Shown: positions 30,612 to 39,082 of the stretch, one piece after another
How the letters are laid out: the number at the start of each line of letters is the position of its first letter
Position numbering within the stretch: the first letter of the stretch is position 1
Origin: Pseudoalteromonas viridis
Lineage (GTDB): Bacteria; Pseudomonadota; Gammaproteobacteria; Enterobacterales; Alteromonadaceae
NCBI RefSeq assembly: GCF_017742995.1
Contig: NZ_CP072425.1
Coordinates: 1,984,001 to 2,048,000 of the forward strand
Direction: 5' to 3'
DNA: 64,000 nucleotides
Position numbers and translations under genes: made by a program
The notes under the pieces: model-generated
The model's database searches: none
Told to the model about the DNA's origin: nothing
Seen by the model: the letters and a program-made list of their open reading frames with translations, nothing else

Positions 30612-31505
30612 TTATGATTTTCGGTCGTAAACGACCGCATTGTGGGCATGCAAACTTTCCTGATGCTCCACTTTAAACTGGTAGTCCGTTACCTCAGAAA
30701 TAGACTCCAGCGTTGCTTTAATACGCCTCGCCGCATCCTCACAAAACATCAGGTTTTTTGCATTCAATGCAGCAAACGCCTGCTCATCTTCGCGTTTTAC
30801 CGCTGTTTGTACTGGTGTTGCCAGGGTTTCTTCAAACAGTGCAAGCCAGTGCGCCAGATCCGGCAAGAGACCGCCTGCCAGGTCGGCTTCGATATAGGCA
30901 TAAGAGCGCTGGCTGTGCGGTGTTGCGACAGAGCCGTGCGGTCCTTTCAGCCATTCCAGTAGTTGTGCCTTGTCTATATTGTCCTGCGTGGCAAACTGTT
31001 GTTCTACTGTCTCGCTCAGTAACTGGCGAGACAAAGCCGCAGAGCACGGGCAGGTACTGCTGTAGGTAATGGTACTGATAAGCTTGCAGTAGGTTTCGCC
31101 CTCAAGGTGCTCACAGTGCAACTCTATTGGATAGGCATTGTAGCCGCTGTAGCTGCTTTTCAGTGCCGGTCTGTTCAGTGGCAGCTCAAACTTCAGTACT
31201 AGCTTGGCAGACTGACTGAGACCCTGTTGAGACGCGACTATCTCTTTGAGTACCTTGTCGAGCTGTGCAAAAGTGAGTTCTGTCCCCACCAGAGCTTGGT
31301 TGGCAAGCAGGTAAAGCCGTGACATGTGGATGCCTTTTGCACCTGTATCCAGGCTGACAAAAACGTCCATAAGCGTGTTGATGTTGACACTGGTCTGATC
31401 GCAGCGCACCAGCATCGGTAGGGCAATTTTTTCCATACCAACCCATTTTAGAGGGCTCTGATTGTCTGGTTCAAAATGGCTCGCAATATCGGGAAGTTGC
31501 ATCAT
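30612..31505 (-). CDS. folE2: GTP cyclohydrolase I type IB (FolE2), zinc-independent
   Basis: 297 residues. Family marks include GMEKIALPMLVRC near the N-terminus, VFVSLDTGAKGIHMSRLY with the GTP-site residues, STCPCSAALSRQ with the metal-binding Cys pattern of FolE2, and LMFCEDAARRIKATLE near the end. FolE2 makes 7,8-dihydroneopterin triphosphate from GTP, the first step of folate synthesis. It works with Mn or Fe, replacing zinc-dependent FolE when zinc is short. It sits 16 bases downstream of the variant dihydroorotase gene. A perfect Zur-like box is in the promoter region of this operon. Confidence 0.95.
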   Translation of the reverse strand: MMQLPDIASHFEPDNQSPLKWVGMEKIALPMLVRCDQTSVNINTLMDVFVSLDTGAKGIHMSRLYLLANQALVGTELTFAQLDKVLKEIVASQQGLSQSAKLVLKFELPLNRPALKSSYSGYNAYPIELHCEHLEGETYCKLISTITYSSTCPCSAALSRQLLSETVEQQFATQDNIDKAQLLEWLKGPHGSVATPHSQRSYAYIEADLAGGLLPDLAHWLALFEETLATPVQTAVKREDEQAFAALNAKNLMFCEDAARRIKATLESISEVTDYQFKVEHQESLHAHNAVVYDRKS

Positions 31506-31521
31506 GGTTTATGAGTCCCAT

Positions 31522-32853
31522 TTAACGGTTAAAATGTAACGCCTGCGCGGCATTGTGCTCGGTATTGACCTTGTCACCATCAAACACCATGGCACCATTA
31601 ACGAAGGTGGCACGGATCTGATGAGAGAAAGTGGTGTTATGGAACGGGCTCCACTTACACAGGTAGCGGGTTTGTTCGTGTTGTACGTGGGTTGGGTGAG
31701 TTGGATCAACTAAAACCAGATCGGCAAAATACCCTTCTCTGAGGAAACCCCGCTTATTGATAGCAAAGCGTGTCGCAACGTTATGTGCGGTTTTCTCGAC
31801 CACCTGCTCAAGTGCCATTGCGCCGCGTTTGACCTGCTCTAACAGGGTCAGTAAGGCATGTTCAACCAGTGGCAGGCCTGCAGGGGCCTGCGGATAGGGC
31901 ACGTTTTTCTCTTGCCAGGTATGCGGGGCATGATCGGTGGCAATGATATCAATGCGCCCGTCATGCAAAGCTTTTAGCAAAGCAAGCCGGTCCGATTCAG
32001 CCTTAATGGCCGGGTTACATTTGATGAGATTGCCAAGCGTCGGGTAATCTTGTTCGTTAAACCACAAATGATGAACACAGGCCTCGGCTGTAATGTGCTT
32101 TTCTGCCAAAGGCGCAGTGCTGAATAAGCTCAGCTCTTTTGCCGTGGTTAAGTGCAACACATGCAGCTGGGTACGATATTTTTTAGCAAGCGCGACGGCA
32201 TAAGAAGAGGATTGATAGCAGGCTTCATCATCACGGATCATCGGGTGATGGATGATTTGCGGTGAACCATATTGCTGCTCTATGCGTGCGGCATTTTGTT
32301 GGATCACCGAGCCTTGCTCACAGTGCGTAGCAATCAGTGTGGGGCACTCTCTGAAAATTGCATCCAAAGCAGCGGGATGCTCAACCAGTAAATCACCGGT
32401 TGAGGCACCCATAAACACTTTCACCCCACACACCTGGGTTGGATCAACGGCTTTGATCTCATCTAAATTATCAGGCGTGGCGCCGAGGTAAAATGCATAG
32501 TTTGCGACAGAGTCTCGCTGTGCAATGGCTTGTTTGTCTGCGAGGGCCTGTCGGGTGGTGGTCGAAGGGGAAACATTGGGCATTTCCATAAAACTGGTGA
32601 TCCCACCGGCAACCGCCGCAGCTGACTCGCTGGCAATGGAACCTTTATGCGTAAGGCCGGGCTCTCTGAAATGCACCTGGTCGTCTATCATACCGGGCAG
32701 TAGCCACATGCCCTGAGCATCAATGACCTCTTCACTGGGTTTGGCGGATAAATCCGGGCCAATTTCAGCAATAACCTGGTTTTCAATTCTGAGATCTGAA
32801 ATGTAAAGCTTACCTTCGTTCACTAAGGTGGCGTGTTTTATTAAGCGTGCCAT
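31522..32853 (-). CDS. Dihydroorotase, variant (PyrC2-type), Zur-linked
   Basis: 443 residues, class I dihydroorotase fold: LLPGMIDDQVHFREPGLTHK, GGITSFMEMPN, GVKVFMGAST with the carboxylated Lys, LIATHCEQ, TQLHVLHLTTAKEL and IIATDHAPHTW with the catalytic Asp. In the first metal motif the usual HxH is QxH (DDQVHF), so one zinc ligand is changed. The same variant occurs in a natural subgroup of dihydroorotases. The enzyme cyclises carbamoyl-aspartate in pyrimidine synthesis. Co-transcription with folE2 and a nearby Zur-like box point to a back-up enzyme for zinc limitation, as in published comparative studies of COG0523 neighbourhoods. Confidence 0.9.
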   Translation of the reverse strand: MARLIKHATLVNEGKLYISDLRIENQVIAEIGPDLSAKPSEEVIDAQGMWLLPGMIDDQVHFREPGLTHKGSIASESAAAVAGGITSFMEMPNVSPSTTTRQALADKQAIAQRDSVANYAFYLGATPDNLDEIKAVDPTQVCGVKVFMGASTGDLLVEHPAALDAIFRECPTLIATHCEQGSVIQQNAARIEQQYGSPQIIHHPMIRDDEACYQSSSYAVALAKKYRTQLHVLHLTTAKELSLFSTAPLAEKHITAEACVHHLWFNEQDYPTLGNLIKCNPAIKAESDRLALLKALHDGRIDIIATDHAPHTWQEKNVPYPQAPAGLPLVEHALLTLLEQVKRGAMALEQVVEKTAHNVATRFAINKRGFLREGYFADLVLVDPTHPTHVQHEQTRYLCKWSPFHNTTFSHQIRATFVNGAMVFDGDKVNTEHNAAQALHFNR

Positions 32854-33002
32854 TGGTTTCCTGATTAATTATAGAGATAAACAAAACTTAAGGCTGATCC
32901 ACTGGGCCACAACGCAGGCCCAATAGATATTGCGTGTGCTTTTCATTGCGTACCCAACTCACATATGGGTCTGTTTAGCGCAACAAAGATTGTTGATTGT
33001 TT

Positions 33003-33017
33003 TGTTATATTATAACA
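33003..33017. promoter_or_regulatory. Zur box 1 (between pyrC2-folE2 and the M3 peptidase gene)
   Basis: TGTTATATTATAACA is a perfect 7-1-7 palindrome matching the gammaproteobacterial Zur core GTTATANNATAAC with spacing TGTTATA-N-TATAACA. It is 35 bases upstream of the M3 peptidase start and 150 bases from the pyrC2 start, in the only promoter region both can use. Confidence 0.85.
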
Positions 33018-33051
33018 TGTTTGTTCTATTTTACAGATGAGAGAAACAACG

Positions 33052-35205
33052 ATGAAAAAGTTGCTAGCACTGGCGGTGAGTTCCGCCTTACTTGTAACGG
33101 CCTGCACGGGCGGGGATCGTACTTCAGGCTTGCAAAATACGGCGGCGTCTGCGACGGTAACTGAGGGCAATCCATTACTGGTATCAAGCACATTGCAATA
33201 TCAATCACCTGATTTTACCCGCATTAATGACGCGCACTTTATGCCTGCTTTTGAGCAAGGCATGGCGGAACAAATGGCCGAGGTAAACGCCATTATCAGC
33301 CAAACTGAGCCTGCCAGTTTTAGTAATACCATTGTGGCATTGGAGCGAAGTGGTGAATTACTAAAGCGCACGCAGGGGGTGTTCTTTAACCTCTCAAATA
33401 CCGACTCAAACGCCAAGCGACGCGAGATACAGTCTGAAATGGCGCCTAAGCTGGCTGGTCACTACGACAATATTTATCTGAACAAAGCATTGTACGAACG
33501 TGTTGCACAGGTTTACGGACAGCGCAATGCGCTTAATCTGAGTGCAGAAGAAAAACGCCTGACAGAAGTCTATTACAAGCAATTTGTCAGAGCGGGTGCC
33601 AGGCTGACGGACGCGCAACAAAAAGAGATCCGTGAAATCAATGCGTCATTGTCGTCATTAACCACACAGTTCTCGCAGCACCTGTTGGCCATGTCTAAAA
33701 GCAATGTGGTACTGGTTGAGGACAAAGCGAAGCTGGCAGGTCTGACAGATGCACATATCGCGCAGCTGGCACAAGCGGCTGAACAAGCCGGGTATCCGGG
33801 GCAGTATCTGATCAAAATTACCAATACTACGCGACAGCCTATTCTGGCCAAGCTCGAAGATCGTCAGTTACGTGAGCAAGTATGGCGCGCATCCGCTTAT
33901 CGTGGTTTAAAAGGTGAAAACAACAATCGTGAAATTGTCGCACAGCTGGCACAGCTCAGAGCAAAGAAGGCGGCACTGCTTGGCCATGAGAGCTGGGCAC
34001 ATTATGGCCTGGATGAACAAATGGCTAAAACACCCACCGCAGTGTATGACATGTTTGCCAGCATGGTGCCAGCGCTGTTGAAAAACGTTGAAGCCGAAGC
34101 GCAAGCCATCAAAGACAAAATTCGCGCTACGGGCGGCGACTTTGAACTACAGGCCTGGGACTGGCTGTACTATGCCGACAAGGTTCGTCAGGATAAGTTC
34201 GATTTGGATGAGTCTGAGGTTAAAGCTTATTTCGAATTTAATCGCGTACTGGAAGATGGCCTGTTCTTTACCATGGAGCGTTTGTACGGCGTAACCTTCA
34301 AGCCACGTAACGATATTCCGGTTTATCACCCGGATGTGAAAGCCTATGAAGTGTTTGACGCGGACGGCACCAGCCTGGCACTGTTTATGGCCGACTACTT
34401 TGCTCGCGACGGTAAGCGCGGTGGCGCCTGGATGAGCTCATTTGTGAAGCAGTCTGGTCTGGACAAACAACGTCCGGTGGTGGTCAATGTGATGAACATT
34501 GAAAAAGCCCCCGAAGGTCAGCCGACTCTGCTGAGCTATTCTGAAACCACTACCATGTTCCACGAGCTGGGTCATGGTCTGCACGGCATGCTGTCTCAGG
34601 TTAAATATCCCACTTTGTCGGGAACCTCGGTATCCCGCGACTTTGTTGAGTTCCCGTCTACGTTTGAAGAAGACTGGGCAATTCACCCGGAAGTTATCCA
34701 GAACTATGCCAAACATTACCAAACCGGAGAAGCAATCCCACAGGCTTTGCTGAATAAAGTGGTTGCCAGCCGCAGTTTCAATATGGGCTTTGACACGCTG
34801 GAATATGTAGCCGCTGCACTGCTGGATATGGAGTGGCATGCACTGGCGGCGGACGCGCCGTTGCAGGATCTGGTTGAGTTCGAACAAGCTGCGCTGAGCA
34901 AGCACGGTGTGAACATCGACTATGTGCCACCCAGATACAAATCGGCTTACTTTGCCCATTCAATGGGGGGCGGCTACTCCGCAGGTTACTATGCCTACAT
35001 GTGGAGTGAGATCCTGGCGGCCGATGCCTTTGCCTATGTGCAGTCGCAGGGCGGGCTCAATCGCAAGATTGGCAGCCACTATCGTAAGAACATTCTTGAA
35101 GTGGGTAACTCCCGCGACCTGATGGAATCTTACAAAGCTTTCCGTGGTGCAGAGCCAACCACCGAAGCGCTGCTTAAGCGCCGCGGACTCAACGTCGCAC
35201 CATAA
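33052..35205 (+). CDS. Lipid-anchored M3-family metallopeptidase (Dcp/oligopeptidase A type)
   Basis: 717 residues from ATG 33052. MKKLLALAVSSALLVTACTG is a lipoprotein signal with lipobox VTAC, so the enzyme sits in the periplasm or at the outer membrane, unlike the cytosolic relatives. The active site is TMFHELGHGLHGML, with HExxH at residues 504-508. The third ligand is expected in the FVEFPSTFEEDW region. GGGYSAGYYAYMWSEI is the conserved C-terminal motif of M3 enzymes. It probably degrades short peptides outside the cytoplasm. A perfect Zur-like box lies 35 bases upstream, suggesting that it is made when zinc is scarce. A cytosolic paralogue, prlC, is at 42450-44495. Confidence 0.93.
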   Translation: MKKLLALAVSSALLVTACTGGDRTSGLQNTAASATVTEGNPLLVSSTLQYQSPDFTRINDAHFMPAFEQGMAEQMAEVNAIISQTEPASFSNTIVALERSGELLKRTQGVFFNLSNTDSNAKRREIQSEMAPKLAGHYDNIYLNKALYERVAQVYGQRNALNLSAEEKRLTEVYYKQFVRAGARLTDAQQKEIREINASLSSLTTQFSQHLLAMSKSNVVLVEDKAKLAGLTDAHIAQLAQAAEQAGYPGQYLIKITNTTRQPILAKLEDRQLREQVWRASAYRGLKGENNNREIVAQLAQLRAKKAALLGHESWAHYGLDEQMAKTPTAVYDMFASMVPALLKNVEAEAQAIKDKIRATGGDFELQAWDWLYYADKVRQDKFDLDESEVKAYFEFNRVLEDGLFFTMERLYGVTFKPRNDIPVYHPDVKAYEVFDADGTSLALFMADYFARDGKRGGAWMSSFVKQSGLDKQRPVVVNVMNIEKAPEGQPTLLSYSETTTMFHELGHGLHGMLSQVKYPTLSGTSVSRDFVEFPSTFEEDWAIHPEVIQNYAKHYQTGEAIPQALLNKVVASRSFNMGFDTLEYVAAALLDMEWHALAADAPLQDLVEFEQAALSKHGVNIDYVPPRYKSAYFAHSMGGGYSAGYYAYMWSEILAADAFAYVQSQGGLNRKIGSHYRKNILEVGNSRDLMESYKAFRGAEPTTEALLKRRGLNVAP

Positions 35206-35238
35206 CTCCAACGCCTGAGGACTGCCAAAAGGTAGTCC

Positions 35239-35404
35239 TAATACCAATTCACATTAATACATAACCAATTGGAGAGATTAAATCTGCCGATAACAGTGTT
35301 AAAAATTTCTCATTTAGAACAACTAAACAGCAAAATTTTTGCCTCGTTATCGCCGAGATTTACTCGTCTCAAGATTGGCTACTTAATTATGCGGATTGGT
35401 ATTA
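35239..35404. repeat. 166-bp MITE-like element with 10-bp terminal inverted repeats
   Basis: The ends are TAATACCAAT (35239-35248) and ATTGGTATTA (35395-35404), an exact inverted repeat. Inner arms also pair, CGATAAC near 35290 with GTTATCG near 35346 and AAAAATTT with AAATTTTT, so the whole element can fold into a long hairpin. It has no coding capacity. It resembles short non-autonomous repeats common in marine Alteromonadales. It ends 21 bases before the Zur-like box of the DUF1826 gene. Confidence 0.8.
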
Positions 35405-35425
35405 CCAGCTTACAATCTTTGGATA

Positions 35426-35440
35426 TGTTATACTGTAACT
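35426..35440. promoter_or_regulatory. Zur box 2 (upstream of the DUF1826 gene)
   Basis: TGTTATACTGTAACT retains the 7-1-7 layout, with core GTTATA-C-TGTAAC, one mismatch to GTTATA-N-TATAAC. It lies 46 bases before the start codon of the DUF1826 gene. Confidence 0.65.
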
Positions 35441-35486
35441 TTTGTTGTGAGTAGCGACCAATCAGGCGCAGATGTAGGAGAAGACC

Positions 35487-36161
35487 ATGACTAATGCTTT
35501 AGCCGCCAATGACAATCCAGCAATCCCGAGCAATCGGTTTGCAGCTATATCTTCTGAGCCGAATATTCTGACGGATATCTATCGCGAAGAAATCAACCTG
35601 AGTGTCTGGCAATGTACGCTGAGTCAAGCACTTAACTCGGAAGTGGCGGACTTTATGAGTGCTGCCAGCGAATTGCAGCTGTCGATTGCCCTGACGCCCG
35701 AGCAAACGATAGACGAGCTGCACGGCGCATCAGCTTTGCTTGTTGATAAGCCTGCACTGAGCGCTCATCTGGCAATGCTGGTGGATATGTTCTGCACGTT
35801 GTTTGAACTCAAGCGCGCCGGGCTCAGGCTCACTCTGCTCAATAAAGCCATGTGTCCTAAGTTCCATGTTGATCACATCCCGTGTCGGCTGGTGAGTACA
35901 CTCGGCGGCGTAGCCTCTCAGTGGTTACCGCATGAAAAAGTGGATCGCAGCAAGCTGGGTTTGGGCAGCAAAGGCAAAAAGGATCACGAATCCGGCATTT
36001 ACACCTGTCAGTCGGACATTCAGCAACTCAATACCGGCGATATTGCCCTGTTAAAAGGCTCCGGTTGGTTTGGCAATGAAGAGGGCGCACTGGTACATCG
36101 CTCTCCGGCACCCGCTGCGGGTGAAACGCGCCTGTTGCTTACCCTGGACTTTATTGACTGA
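35487..36161 (+). CDS. DUF1826 protein, zinc-homeostasis associated
   Basis: 224 residues, soluble. It contains ILTDIYREEINLSVWQCTL, MCPKFHVDHIPCRLVSTLGG (a Cys/His-rich stretch that could bind a metal), DIQQLNTGDIALLKGSGWFG and ALVHRSPAPAAGETRLLLTL. These are the blocks expected for DUF1826. The HVD...R pattern and the C-terminal H-S-P-x-R-like end are reminiscent of cupin-like oxygenases. The biochemical role is unknown. DUF1826 genes have been noted beside COG0523 and Zur-controlled genes in comparative studies, and a Zur-like box precedes this one. Confidence 0.82.
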   Translation: MTNALAANDNPAIPSNRFAAISSEPNILTDIYREEINLSVWQCTLSQALNSEVADFMSAASELQLSIALTPEQTIDELHGASALLVDKPALSAHLAMLVDMFCTLFELKRAGLRLTLLNKAMCPKFHVDHIPCRLVSTLGGVASQWLPHEKVDRSKLGLGSKGKKDHESGIYTCQSDIQQLNTGDIALLKGSGWFGNEEGALVHRSPAPAAGETRLLLTLDFID

Positions 36162-36330
36162 GCAATTAAACCGCCGTGTGTTAGTATTTTTAGTGTACTG
36201 GCTCATGGTCAGATGAATGCCTGATCATGAGCGCTTTTAGGTTGGCTGGAGCGCAGAGTAAGAGTGGCGTTTAACCTTATACTGGCTGGCTTTTGGCCGC
36301 ACATTGATTGCAAAGTACGGCCAGGCAGGG

Positions 36331-36720
36331 TTAGTGGCAACGCCCCGTCTGACACAGATTAAAGTTTTTATAATGGCTTATCACCAGCAACACGCTGCCC
36401 AAAATGGTCAGCAGTTTTTCTCCTTCCTCGGCCATCAAATCATGAGCAAAAAAGGCGGCGAAGAATAATACCCCGATACCTGCGGTGCCGTAGCCTAGAA
36501 TGCGCCACTGATTGTGCTTTTTACACCCTAAAAATAACGCGCTACTGCTGGTCACCAGTACACCGACAAGTAGCCAGCGATGAAATGCCTCATCCGACAG
36601 GAAGGTTGCACCGAAAGCTGGAAGCAGAGCAACCAGCAGGGGTACAAACAAGCAATGCATAACGCACATTGCAGACAGGCTGATGGCATATTTGTCTAAC
36701 CGTTCAGACAGGTTTCTCAT
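36331..36720 (-). CDS. MerC-like integral membrane protein
   Basis: 129 residues with four hydrophobic segments. The N-terminal LDKYAISLSAMCVMHCLFVP contains the Cys-x3-Cys pair in the first helix that typifies MerC proteins (metal contact in the mercury transporters), and LGCKKHNQWRILGYGTAG the second conserved block. The C-terminus ends CQTGRCH, a further possible metal site. Outside mercury operons such proteins occur near zinc-responsive genes, and a near-perfect Zur-like box lies 76 bases upstream. A part in zinc or other divalent metal movement is inferred, not shown. No mer operon genes are nearby. Confidence 0.85.
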   Translation of the reverse strand: MRNLSERLDKYAISLSAMCVMHCLFVPLLVALLPAFGATFLSDEAFHRWLLVGVLVTSSSALFLGCKKHNQWRILGYGTAGIGVLFFAAFFAHDLMAEEGEKLLTILGSVLLVISHYKNFNLCQTGRCH

Positions 36721-36795
36721 GGTTTTTCACCTGATTAATTTTTGCAGCCGCTTATGCAGAGACATCAAACGAGTGGCTGAGTATAAAAAAAGAGT

Positions 36796-36810
36796 TGTTA
36801 TATTATATCA
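36796..36810. promoter_or_regulatory. Zur box 3 (upstream of the MerC-like gene)
   Basis: TGTTATATTATATCA differs from the perfect box at 33003-33017 at one position. It lies 76 bases upstream of the reverse-strand start at 36720. Its left arm TGTTATA is intact. Confidence 0.7.
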
Positions 36811-37370: not shown

Positions 37371-38870
37371 TTAACTACAACTAATTGAATCACCGCTGCT
37401 GTTATAGCAGGTCTCAGTTTGCTGAATAATGTGGCGGCACATATAGGCCACATTGTTTTCCATACAGTTAAAGTAAGTGCCATAAATGCCTGAGCTTCCA
37501 ACATTATAATCAACCCGCCACTCATAGTAAGAGTATGGCAGAGTTGACTGATCGCTCAGCCAGCGGCCAAAGACGGCACTAGATACAATGTCGTATAAGG
37601 GGGTTGGGCGCACACCCAGGCTGCGCCAGCCATTATTGTAACCTGAGTATTCACCAGACATTTCAACTACGGCATTGGCAGCGTCATAATAGGGGTTATT
37701 GAAATTGCTTCTCTTATCCACCTTAGACAGCAAGCCCTGATAGTCTTTTACCCAGGTGGTGCCTTCACAGCTGTTCAGGAACACCATGCCTTTATCTTTG
37801 CCTTTACCACAAGTGCCCTGAGGTGCAGCGTCAGCACTCCAGATGTAGTCGGCACTTTTTCCGCCGTGGATTTTGGCTTCAAAGCCACTGGAAGAAGTGA
37901 TGATCACATCATTGTCTTTACCGCCTTCCTGATTAGAGTTTTCGCTATTGGTAAAGAGGATGTCATCGCCATTGTTACCCCAGGCTTTGTGCCAGCGCAG
38001 CCCATTGGGGTTGCTTTCTCCATTTTCGAACAAGGCATCGTTACCATTGCCCCCGTGCAGGCGATCTTCACGGCCACCATTGCCGGTCAGGTAGTCGTTA
38101 CCATCCTCGCCATACAAAGTGTCGTTGCCCTTGTCGCCGCTGAGCACATCGTGTCCCGCACCACCGTAGAGTTTATCGCTGCCATCTTTGTTACTGTTGC
38201 AGCTGCTTTGCTCATAAATATAACCATTGTTGGCATTGGCAAGGCGACAGCCGCCACCGAGGTAGTCATTGTCGTTGCCACCGTAAAGCACATCCGAACC
38301 CTGACCGCCCATCAGCAAGTCACCGCCATCATCGCCCCACAGGGTGTCATCGTTGTAATCCCCAAACAGTTTGTCATGGTGATTGCCGCCCTTGAGCTGA
38401 TCGTTACCCCAGCCGCCGTAGAGCGTGTCGCTGCCGTCTTCACCGAACAGCTGGTCGTTACCACTGTTGCCCTTAAGCGTATCGTTGCCCCGACCACCGT
38501 AGAGACGATCGTTCTGGTTGCCGGAGATCAGGGTGTCGTTGCCATATTGTCCATACAAGGTTTGCGGCACCGAAATACTGCTGGCATCGAACGAATCGGC
38601 GCCATTGCCCAGGCGCGCTTCAAGGGCACTAAACTGGCTCATAAAAAAGGTTTCACAGCTACTGCTGCTACCCACTTTACGGGTCACAGTTAGGGTATCG
38701 CCCGATTTACTGAGCGTGAACTGCTCGCTGTGGCGTGAACCTGCAACTTTCAGCGTATCGCCGTCCAGATAAGCCGAGGCACCGCCTGCAAGCCCGCTAC
38801 AGGCCGCCATCGCCTGGCCCGAAGCTGCCAGGATAACCGCCAGACAGAGCGCATTTAACTTGGTATTCAT
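37371..38870 (-). CDS. Secreted protein with RTX (haemolysin-type) calcium-binding repeats
   Basis: 499 residues from the ATG at 38868-38870, preceded by AAGGA; the longer frame to 38939 is not supported. MNTKLNALCLAVILAASGQAMA is a Sec signal peptide. About residues 100-290 hold a run of glycine- and Asp-rich nonapeptides of the GGxGxDxLx type, such as YGGRGNDTLKGNSGNDQLFG and LYGGAGHDVLSGDKGNDTLY, broken by a Cys-containing insert. The C-terminal 200 residues are non-repetitive with several Cys, suggesting disulfides. A Sec signal with RTX repeats differs from classical type I-secreted toxins, so export may be two-step. The function is unknown; adhesin or enzyme are both possible. Confidence 0.85.
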   Translation of the reverse strand: MNTKLNALCLAVILAASGQAMAACSGLAGGASAYLDGDTLKVAGSRHSEQFTLSKSGDTLTVTRKVGSSSSCETFFMSQFSALEARLGNGADSFDASSISVPQTLYGQYGNDTLISGNQNDRLYGGRGNDTLKGNSGNDQLFGEDGSDTLYGGWGNDQLKGGNHHDKLFGDYNDDTLWGDDGGDLLMGGQGSDVLYGGNDNDYLGGGCRLANANNGYIYEQSSCNSNKDGSDKLYGGAGHDVLSGDKGNDTLYGEDGNDYLTGNGGREDRLHGGNGNDALFENGESNPNGLRWHKAWGNNGDDILFTNSENSNQEGGKDNDVIITSSSGFEAKIHGGKSADYIWSADAAPQGTCGKGKDKGMVFLNSCEGTTWVKDYQGLLSKVDKRSNFNNPYYDAANAVVEMSGEYSGYNNGWRSLGVRPTPLYDIVSSAVFGRWLSDQSTLPYSYYEWRVDYNVGSSGIYGTYFNCMENNVAYMCRHIIQQTETCYNSSGDSISCS

Positions 38871-39082
38871 TGTGAAATCCTTAGATTTTATAGTTTTGGG
38901 TTGTTCCTGCCTTAGGGTAGCGGACAAATTTGCACGCAATATGGAGCTAGCTGCTCAGTATAAGAGGATGGATCTGCATGCTGGCGCTTGGGAAAGTCTC
39001 AAGTAGCCATGTACAGACTATTGAAAAATAATCAAAAGTCAGACAAGTTATGCAGGACTCAATAAAAATAAAAGGAAGGAAC

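Follow-up and report, generated by a model that had tools for sequence, protein, structure and literature searches.

The window analysed here is a stretch of 64,000 nucleotides from Pseudoalteromonas viridis (GCF_017742995.1, NZ_CP072425.1:1,984,001-2,048,000), whose genome measures 5.55 Mb in two contigs (C1 and C2). Positions 30612..36810 of the window hold an island in which folE2, pyrC2, a predicted lipid-anchored M3 peptidase, a DUF1826 protein and a MerC-like protein lie next to three boxes that, as far as sequence can show, are binding sites of the zinc regulator Zur. Profile searches returned FolE2, a PRK09236-type dihydroorotase, Peptidase_M3, DUF1826 and MerC, as an initial annotation made from the sequence had named these genes. 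The three box sequences were found at exactly the positions it gave, each before an island gene. The island is organised as follows:

30612..31505, minus strand: folE2, FolE2-type GTP cyclohydrolase (NCBIfam FolE2, 277 bits, cut-off 215)
31522..32853, minus strand: pyrC2, dihydroorotase paralogue (NCBIfam PRK09236, 692.8 bits, cut-off 535)
33003..33017, no strand: putative Zur box TGTTATATTATAACA between pyrC2 (minus) and the M3 gene (plus), 0 mismatches to TGTTATANTATAACA
33052..35205, plus strand: M3 peptidase of Dcp type with predicted lipoprotein signal LVTAC and HELGH site (Peptidase_M3, E 3.7e-133)
35239..35404, no strand: repeat resembling a miniature inverted-repeat transposable element (MITE) between the M3 gene and the DUF1826 box, with 31-nt imperfect inverted ends
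35426..35440, no strand: Zur-like box before DUF1826, 2 mismatches to TGTTATANTATAACA
35487..36161, plus strand: DUF1826 protein (PF08856, E 8.9e-56)
36331..36720, minus strand: MerC-like inner-membrane protein with CxxHC motif (PF03203, E 8e-30)
36796..36810, no strand: Zur-like box before MerC, 1 mismatch to TGTTATANTATAACA

The 33003 box ends 34 bp before the ATG of the M3 gene (33052) and lies 149 bp before pyrC2, while the 35426 and 36796 boxes stand 46 bp before DUF1826 and 75 bp before MerC, respectively. The closest named M3 loci belong to Pseudoalteromonas rubra and relatives (94-96% protein identity). Position -49 of the 33003 box is kept in all five rubra-group relatives (L016-L020), the DUF1826 box at 2 mismatches in four of the five (L018 lacks it at that setting), and MerC is preceded by a box with at most 1 mismatch in 5/5.

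The boxes and the Zur regulon of the host

For the proteobacterial Zur box the sequence GAAATGTTATA-N-TATAACATTTC has been published (PMC4219657), and its core is identical to that of the 33003 box. Within the window alone, three hits at up to 3 mismatches are ordinary, since at least 3 hits occurred in 30 of 100 shuffles. The signal appears at higher stringency. With 0-1 mismatch the pattern occurs at six places in the 5.55 Mb genome, all upstream of genes: one each at M3/pyrC2, MerC, the type B ribosomal protein L31 and a siderophore-type TonB receptor, and two in tandem at an AztD-like lipoprotein gene. A wider sample was provided by the best 80 of 380 M3 loci (1,100,106 bases). It contains 34 sites at 0-1 mismatch, whereas 104 palindromes obtained by permuting the half-site gave 0.59 on average (largest 11); all 34 lie upstream of M3, EEP, pyrC2, MerC, ZnuD-like receptor or zur genes.

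A weight matrix was built from 27 distinct sites, none of them at an M3 promoter, although some head operons that contain EEP; the training set includes the 35426 and 36796 sites of the window and excludes the 33003 site. Its consensus is AAATGTTATAATATAACAATT. The 33003 site scores 25.3, against a training median of 24.5, and a score of 9 is reached by 5 of 270 control promoters. A looser pattern, TGNTANANTNTANCA, was tried and set aside: it matched nine places versus two in the control, five of them before M3/pyrC2, MerC, AztD-like, EEP or a TonB receptor gene and four elsewhere.

The host codes for a FUR-family protein at C1:1631991 that scores 164.5 bits on the NCBIfam Zur model, just below the cut-off of 167. 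Zur-type targets with a box are the gene for type B L31 (1 mismatch), the AztD-like lipoprotein gene (70 bits, below the AztD cut-off of 400) and a ZnuD-like receptor gene. The latter has two upstream sites, both with 2 mismatches, and its product matches the ZnuD model with E 1.5e-103 and 347.7 bits, below the strict cut-off of 950. The proposal of a Zur regulon cluster, made in the initial annotation, thus finds support in the published box core, in a host Zur protein and in boxes at L31, AztD-like and ZnuD-like genes. Zur control of the island is highly probable. The same annotation had reasoned that its proposal would be refuted if the palindrome turned up at numerous unrelated loci or missed all known Zur targets; at 0-1 mismatch the genome gives neither picture, while at 2 mismatches the scan is uninformative. 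Its plan of building a motif from the host znuA promoter could not be followed, nor could COG0523 genes serve, because no ZnuA match was obtained for the host and its cobW-family hits are just two, both marginal. These two COG0523 hits (21.5 and 20.8 bits, cut-off 20.7) were rejected from score and context only.

The boxes might instead be sites for Fur, or AT-rich palindromes arisen by chance, in an island unrelated to zinc. Fur and Zur are relatives, one of the boxed receptors resembles siderophore receptors, and the pattern at up to 2 mismatches had to be rejected as a genome-wide test, as it occurs at 17 places versus 16 for the reversed control, a count that does not favour Zur control. 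Set against this are the inner TATA, reported as special to the E. coli Zur box compared with the Fur box (PMC4219657), the presence of type B L31, FolE2, ZnuD-like and AztD-like genes among the targets, and the excess of the 34 sites over permuted palindromes. Fur or chance is accordingly very improbable.

The nearest described systems are the Zur regulons of gamma- and beta-proteobacteria with COG0523, folE2 and zinc-enzyme paralogues (Haas et al. 2009, PMC2770081), which have the same kind of box and share with the present set of genes FolE2, a PyrC paralogue, gamma carbonic anhydrase, COG0523 and DUF1826. They differ in that their nine named enzyme families include neither an M3 peptidase nor EEP, the word peptidase being absent from the text of the paper, and in that the host lacks a ZnuA match and a convincing COG0523 protein. 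Word searches of PMC2770081, PMC6103462, PMC10957091 and PMC4176598 for peptidase or protease turned up no M3 peptidase as Zur target, which is no proof of absence. The displayed matches of "merc" in these papers were all parts of other words, and EEP terms were sought in PMC10957091 and PMC4176598 only. The titles and abstract openings listed in literature searches on Zur name none of M3, EEP and MerC as a target; RegPrecise lies outside this coverage, so that an earlier prediction is possible. The background literature includes PMC8000910 and PMC3840689.

The M3 peptidase and its boxes

The M3 protein combines a Peptidase_M3 domain with an HExxH site (HELGH) and aligns over its full length to E. 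coli Dcp (PDB 1y79, 677 query residues) and to the bacterial dipeptidyl carboxypeptidase of PDB 5l43 (675 query residues). It scores 788 bits on the PRK10280 Dcp model without reaching the cut-off of 944, and is therefore a relative of Dcp rather than the E. coli-type enzyme. The window protein further differs from those two enzymes by its putative lipoprotein signal and Zur box. The lipid anchor was predicted by eye from the lipobox-like LVTAC, and a location outside the cytoplasm would follow from it. A second exported M3 protein of the host is encoded on C2; its gene has no box (matrix score -0.9). All 80 Pseudoalteromonas genomes searched have an M3 homologue among the matches listed.

A box common to divergent genes, as is the one at 33003, does not by itself demonstrate regulation of M3. 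It could serve pyrC2-folE2 alone, with the peptidase gene as a bystander, and such a view would suit the loci L025, L028 and L030, where pyrC2 is 81 bp away from the box and M3 about 350 bp. Orthologous loci were compared, counting a locus as boxed when a site with at most 2 mismatches lay within 450 bp of M3 or of a preceding same-strand EEP gene. By this count 25 of 29 Pseudoalteromonas loci are boxed at M3 or at an EEP-M3 operon, 21 of them at 0-1 mismatch, versus 2 of 51 loci of other genera (L065 at 0 mismatches and L090 at 2; two further loci only at 3). The setting varies. The rubra group has the M3 box in common with divergent pyrC2-folE2; elsewhere an EEP-M3 operon diverges from pyrC2-folE2 or from folE2; in L042 M3 is divergent from a ZnuD-like receptor gene (E 8.8e-95); in L060 M3 has its own box behind a run of zur-like, pyrC2 and folE2 genes, beside a ZnuD-like receptor gene; and in L065, from Glaciecola, a boxed M3 gene diverges from EEP. 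The last two loci have boxed M3 genes without pyrC2 opposite, and the window box itself is nearer to M3 than to pyrC2, which makes the bystander role improbable.

Paralogues provided a control. Proteins were extracted by requiring the HExGH motif, whose conservation was hence not counted as evidence, and the regions upstream of 60 listed matches that fall outside the close M3 group were scanned. In clade B (51-54% identity) one of 38 genes is boxed at up to 2 mismatches and two of 38 reach a matrix score of at least 9. The corresponding figures for clade C (40-43% identity) are 8 of 14 and 11 of 14, and 14 of 14 are boxed at up to 3 mismatches; these genes lie far from pyrC2, a further point against the bystander role. 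Clades D, which is the type of the host C2 copy, and E have no box at up to 2 mismatches (0/5 and 0/3, respectively). In a tree built from 54 of the 102 M3 proteins extracted, a well-supported branch separates each group from the rest. Boxed M3 genes are thus found in two clades that are separated by clades mostly without a box, for which separate recruitment is the simplest account; a single gain of the box followed by losses is a less simple possibility. One of the boxed clade C genes, in L290, and an alkaline phosphatase gene (PF00245) are divergently oriented with box-like sites between the two, and a TonB receptor with a His-rich start is encoded beyond.

The comparison of 25/29 with 2/51 loci and that between clades lend support to an M3 gene under a Zur-type box, which the initial annotation did not know as a described Zur target. 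Several observations weigh against it. Four of the 29 Pseudoalteromonas loci have no box at 2 mismatches (L022, L032 and L079 only a 3-mismatch site, L021 none). The evidence is weak in L023, L025, L028, L029 and L030, where the box is 324-409 bp away from M3 and closer to a different gene, and the luteoviolacea group has no box closer to the M3 frame than 158 bp. For four of the eight boxed clade C genes the hit is located around -351, next to a divergent gene, and only a 3-mismatch site is present around -80. A promoter scan found no sigma-70 promoter around the 33003 box. Finally, the zinc ligands are kept in the M3 protein (HELGH), which is odd for a zinc-sparing response: zinc-sparing paralogues are recognised by the loss of these ligands, as in PyrC2, which reads QVH where the usual HxH metal motif stands. 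With these points weighed, Zur control of M3 itself is still very likely, and control of the island with M3 included is only marginally less so.

Relatives of the MITE-like element at 35239-35404 occur at 64 places in 10 Pseudoalteromonas records, and the repeat is outside the regulon; the short M3-DUF1826 gap in L016, L017 and L020 suggests, without proving it, that these loci lack it. The DUF1826 protein (35487-36161) has an HxD followed later by an H..R-like pattern (FHVD, VHRS) that by eye resembles 2-oxoglutarate oxygenases. A gene for a protein with RTX calcium-binding nonapeptide repeats (PF00353) adjoins the island at 37371-38939.

EEP, MerC and the proposed path of zinc

An exported phosphoesterase of the EEP family (Exo_endo_phos, PF03372, E 1.5e-11) is a second candidate member of the regulon. 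The host gene lies at C1:2786656-2787624 and directly upstream of it stands the symmetrical site TGATATAGTGTATCA (C1:2787628), 3 mismatches from the core. EEP is found in 46 of the 80 Pseudoalteromonas genomes, and 40 of the 45 loci outside the host were fetched. A box with at most 2 mismatches is present at 27 of these 40: in 13 it immediately precedes EEP, and in 14 it heads a series of same-strand genes whose last member is EEP. Five others have a 3-mismatch site at the gene and eight no close box (one has a 3-mismatch site at -276). At least one gene among folE2, pyrC2, MerC, DUF1826, gamma carbonic anhydrase, COG0523, AztD-like and M3 lies within 7 kb of EEP in 22 of the 40 loci.

EEP often lies within operons that contain folE2, MerC, DUF1826, ZrgA or COG0523 genes. 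In L160 the operon is headed by ZrgA (PF10986), known from zinc uptake operons: the box and ZrgA are followed by pyrC2, folE2, gamma carbonic anhydrase, COG0523 and an EEP-acid phosphatase fusion; the host differs by having no ZrgA match. Aligned EEP proteins (21 rows) are invariant in WNxEH, QE, NxHxKSGC, GDFNH and DHC, which we take to be the catalytic motifs of the family. When PDB sequences were searched with a profile, OCRL-1 was the one weak hit (E 0.0077); a single-sequence search gave none. The EEP family usually works with magnesium, and the protein would fit a metal-sparing phosphoesterase. Another exported product was noticed beyond these two families: a 2-mismatch box (L108:4821, C2:532820) lies 312 bp before an exported open reading frame of 729 amino acids whose start looks M4-protease-like by eye.

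The genus is nearly devoid of ZnuABC and ZIP importers. ZnuA (PF01297) is present in 3 of 80 Pseudoalteromonas genomes and was not found in the host, ZIP (PF02535) in 0 of 80, and ZrgA (NF047873) in 13 of 80, all below the strict cut-off and none in the host, although the L160 protein passes the Pfam ZrgA model (148.7 versus 27.4 bits). MerC (PF03203) is present in 66 of 80. Residues C19, H22, C23, H47 and H69 of the MerC-like protein are invariant across 30 aligned rows, and a box with at most 2 mismatches lies near merC in 21 of the 30 best-scoring MerC loci. In the remaining nine the box lies 627-1133 bp upstream, with a Fur-family gene or ZrgA between it and merC (ZrgA was checked by scan in L209); four of these Fur-family regulators score best on the Zur model (54-69 bits, cut-off 167). 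MerC is a candidate inner-membrane zinc importer. Another inner-membrane route for zinc must exist because 14 of the 80 genomes lack MerC.

Zur binding, the response to zinc, cell location and the roles of M3, EEP and MerC are what we infer from sequence, and they suggest the following course of events. When zinc is ample, zinc-bound Zur would sit on the palindromes and block transcription; as zinc falls, the island genes would be released. Saving or freeing zinc inside the cell is established for the families of FolE2, PyrC2 and type B L31, and FolE2 and PyrC2 would spare it here in the cytoplasm, while MerC would probably help zinc across the inner membrane. The M3 dipeptidyl carboxypeptidase would be made and lipid-anchored outside the cytoplasm where, with EEP encoded elsewhere in the genome, it may form an exported hydrolase arm of the zinc response in the genus. 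It might trim periplasmic peptides and free the zinc carried by peptides or proteins taken up via ZnuD-type receptors under Zur control. A similar idea is known from Fus and related import systems (PMC6793856), where a TonB-dependent receptor is combined with a periplasmic metalloprotease that frees metal from the imported protein. Those systems differ in using M16 proteases and handling iron, while the island protein is of the M3 family and has a Zur-type box; a protease gene beside a TonB receptor gene is seen in L042 and relatives and not in the window.

This zinc-release role of M3 is put forward tentatively. M3 could alternatively be Zur-regulated as a back-up isozyme: the everyday exported M3 enzyme would lose its metal, and more copies, or a version of higher affinity or with another metal, would keep peptide breakdown going, EEP standing in likewise for a zinc alkaline phosphatase or a zinc nuclease. 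Zur-linked paralogues that keep their zinc ligands are described (HisI, QueD, AmiA and others), with copy number as a suggested reason (PMC2770081). The unboxed second exported M3 of the host, the EEP-acid phosphatase fusion of L160 and the alkaline phosphatase gene opposite the boxed M3 of L290 point the same way, although the back-up role leaves the M3 genes divergent from ZnuD-like receptor genes in the luteoviolacea group unexplained. It is a reasonable possibility that still falls short of an even chance, and the two readings are close. Zinc release is favoured by the exported place of the enzyme and by the fact that M3 has ZnuD-like receptors as neighbours in other lineages.

Zinc release can be extended to a scheme for the whole genus, which we regard as speculative and rather unlikely to hold in full. 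In a genus nearly without ZnuABC and ZIP, ZnuD-type receptors would import zinc bound to peptides, proteins and phosphate esters, and Zur-controlled M3 and EEP, with or without acid phosphatase, would free it in the periplasm; the AztD-like lipoprotein would hold the metal and the MerC-like protein would carry it inward.

If right, exported hydrolases would join the bacterial zinc-starvation response, and MerC would be a candidate inner-membrane zinc importer for a genus where ZnuA is found in 3/80 genomes and ZIP in 0/80. Because an operon headed by ZrgA contains the EEP-acid phosphatase fusion, the system may also offer a genetic handle on the co-limitation of zinc and phosphorus.

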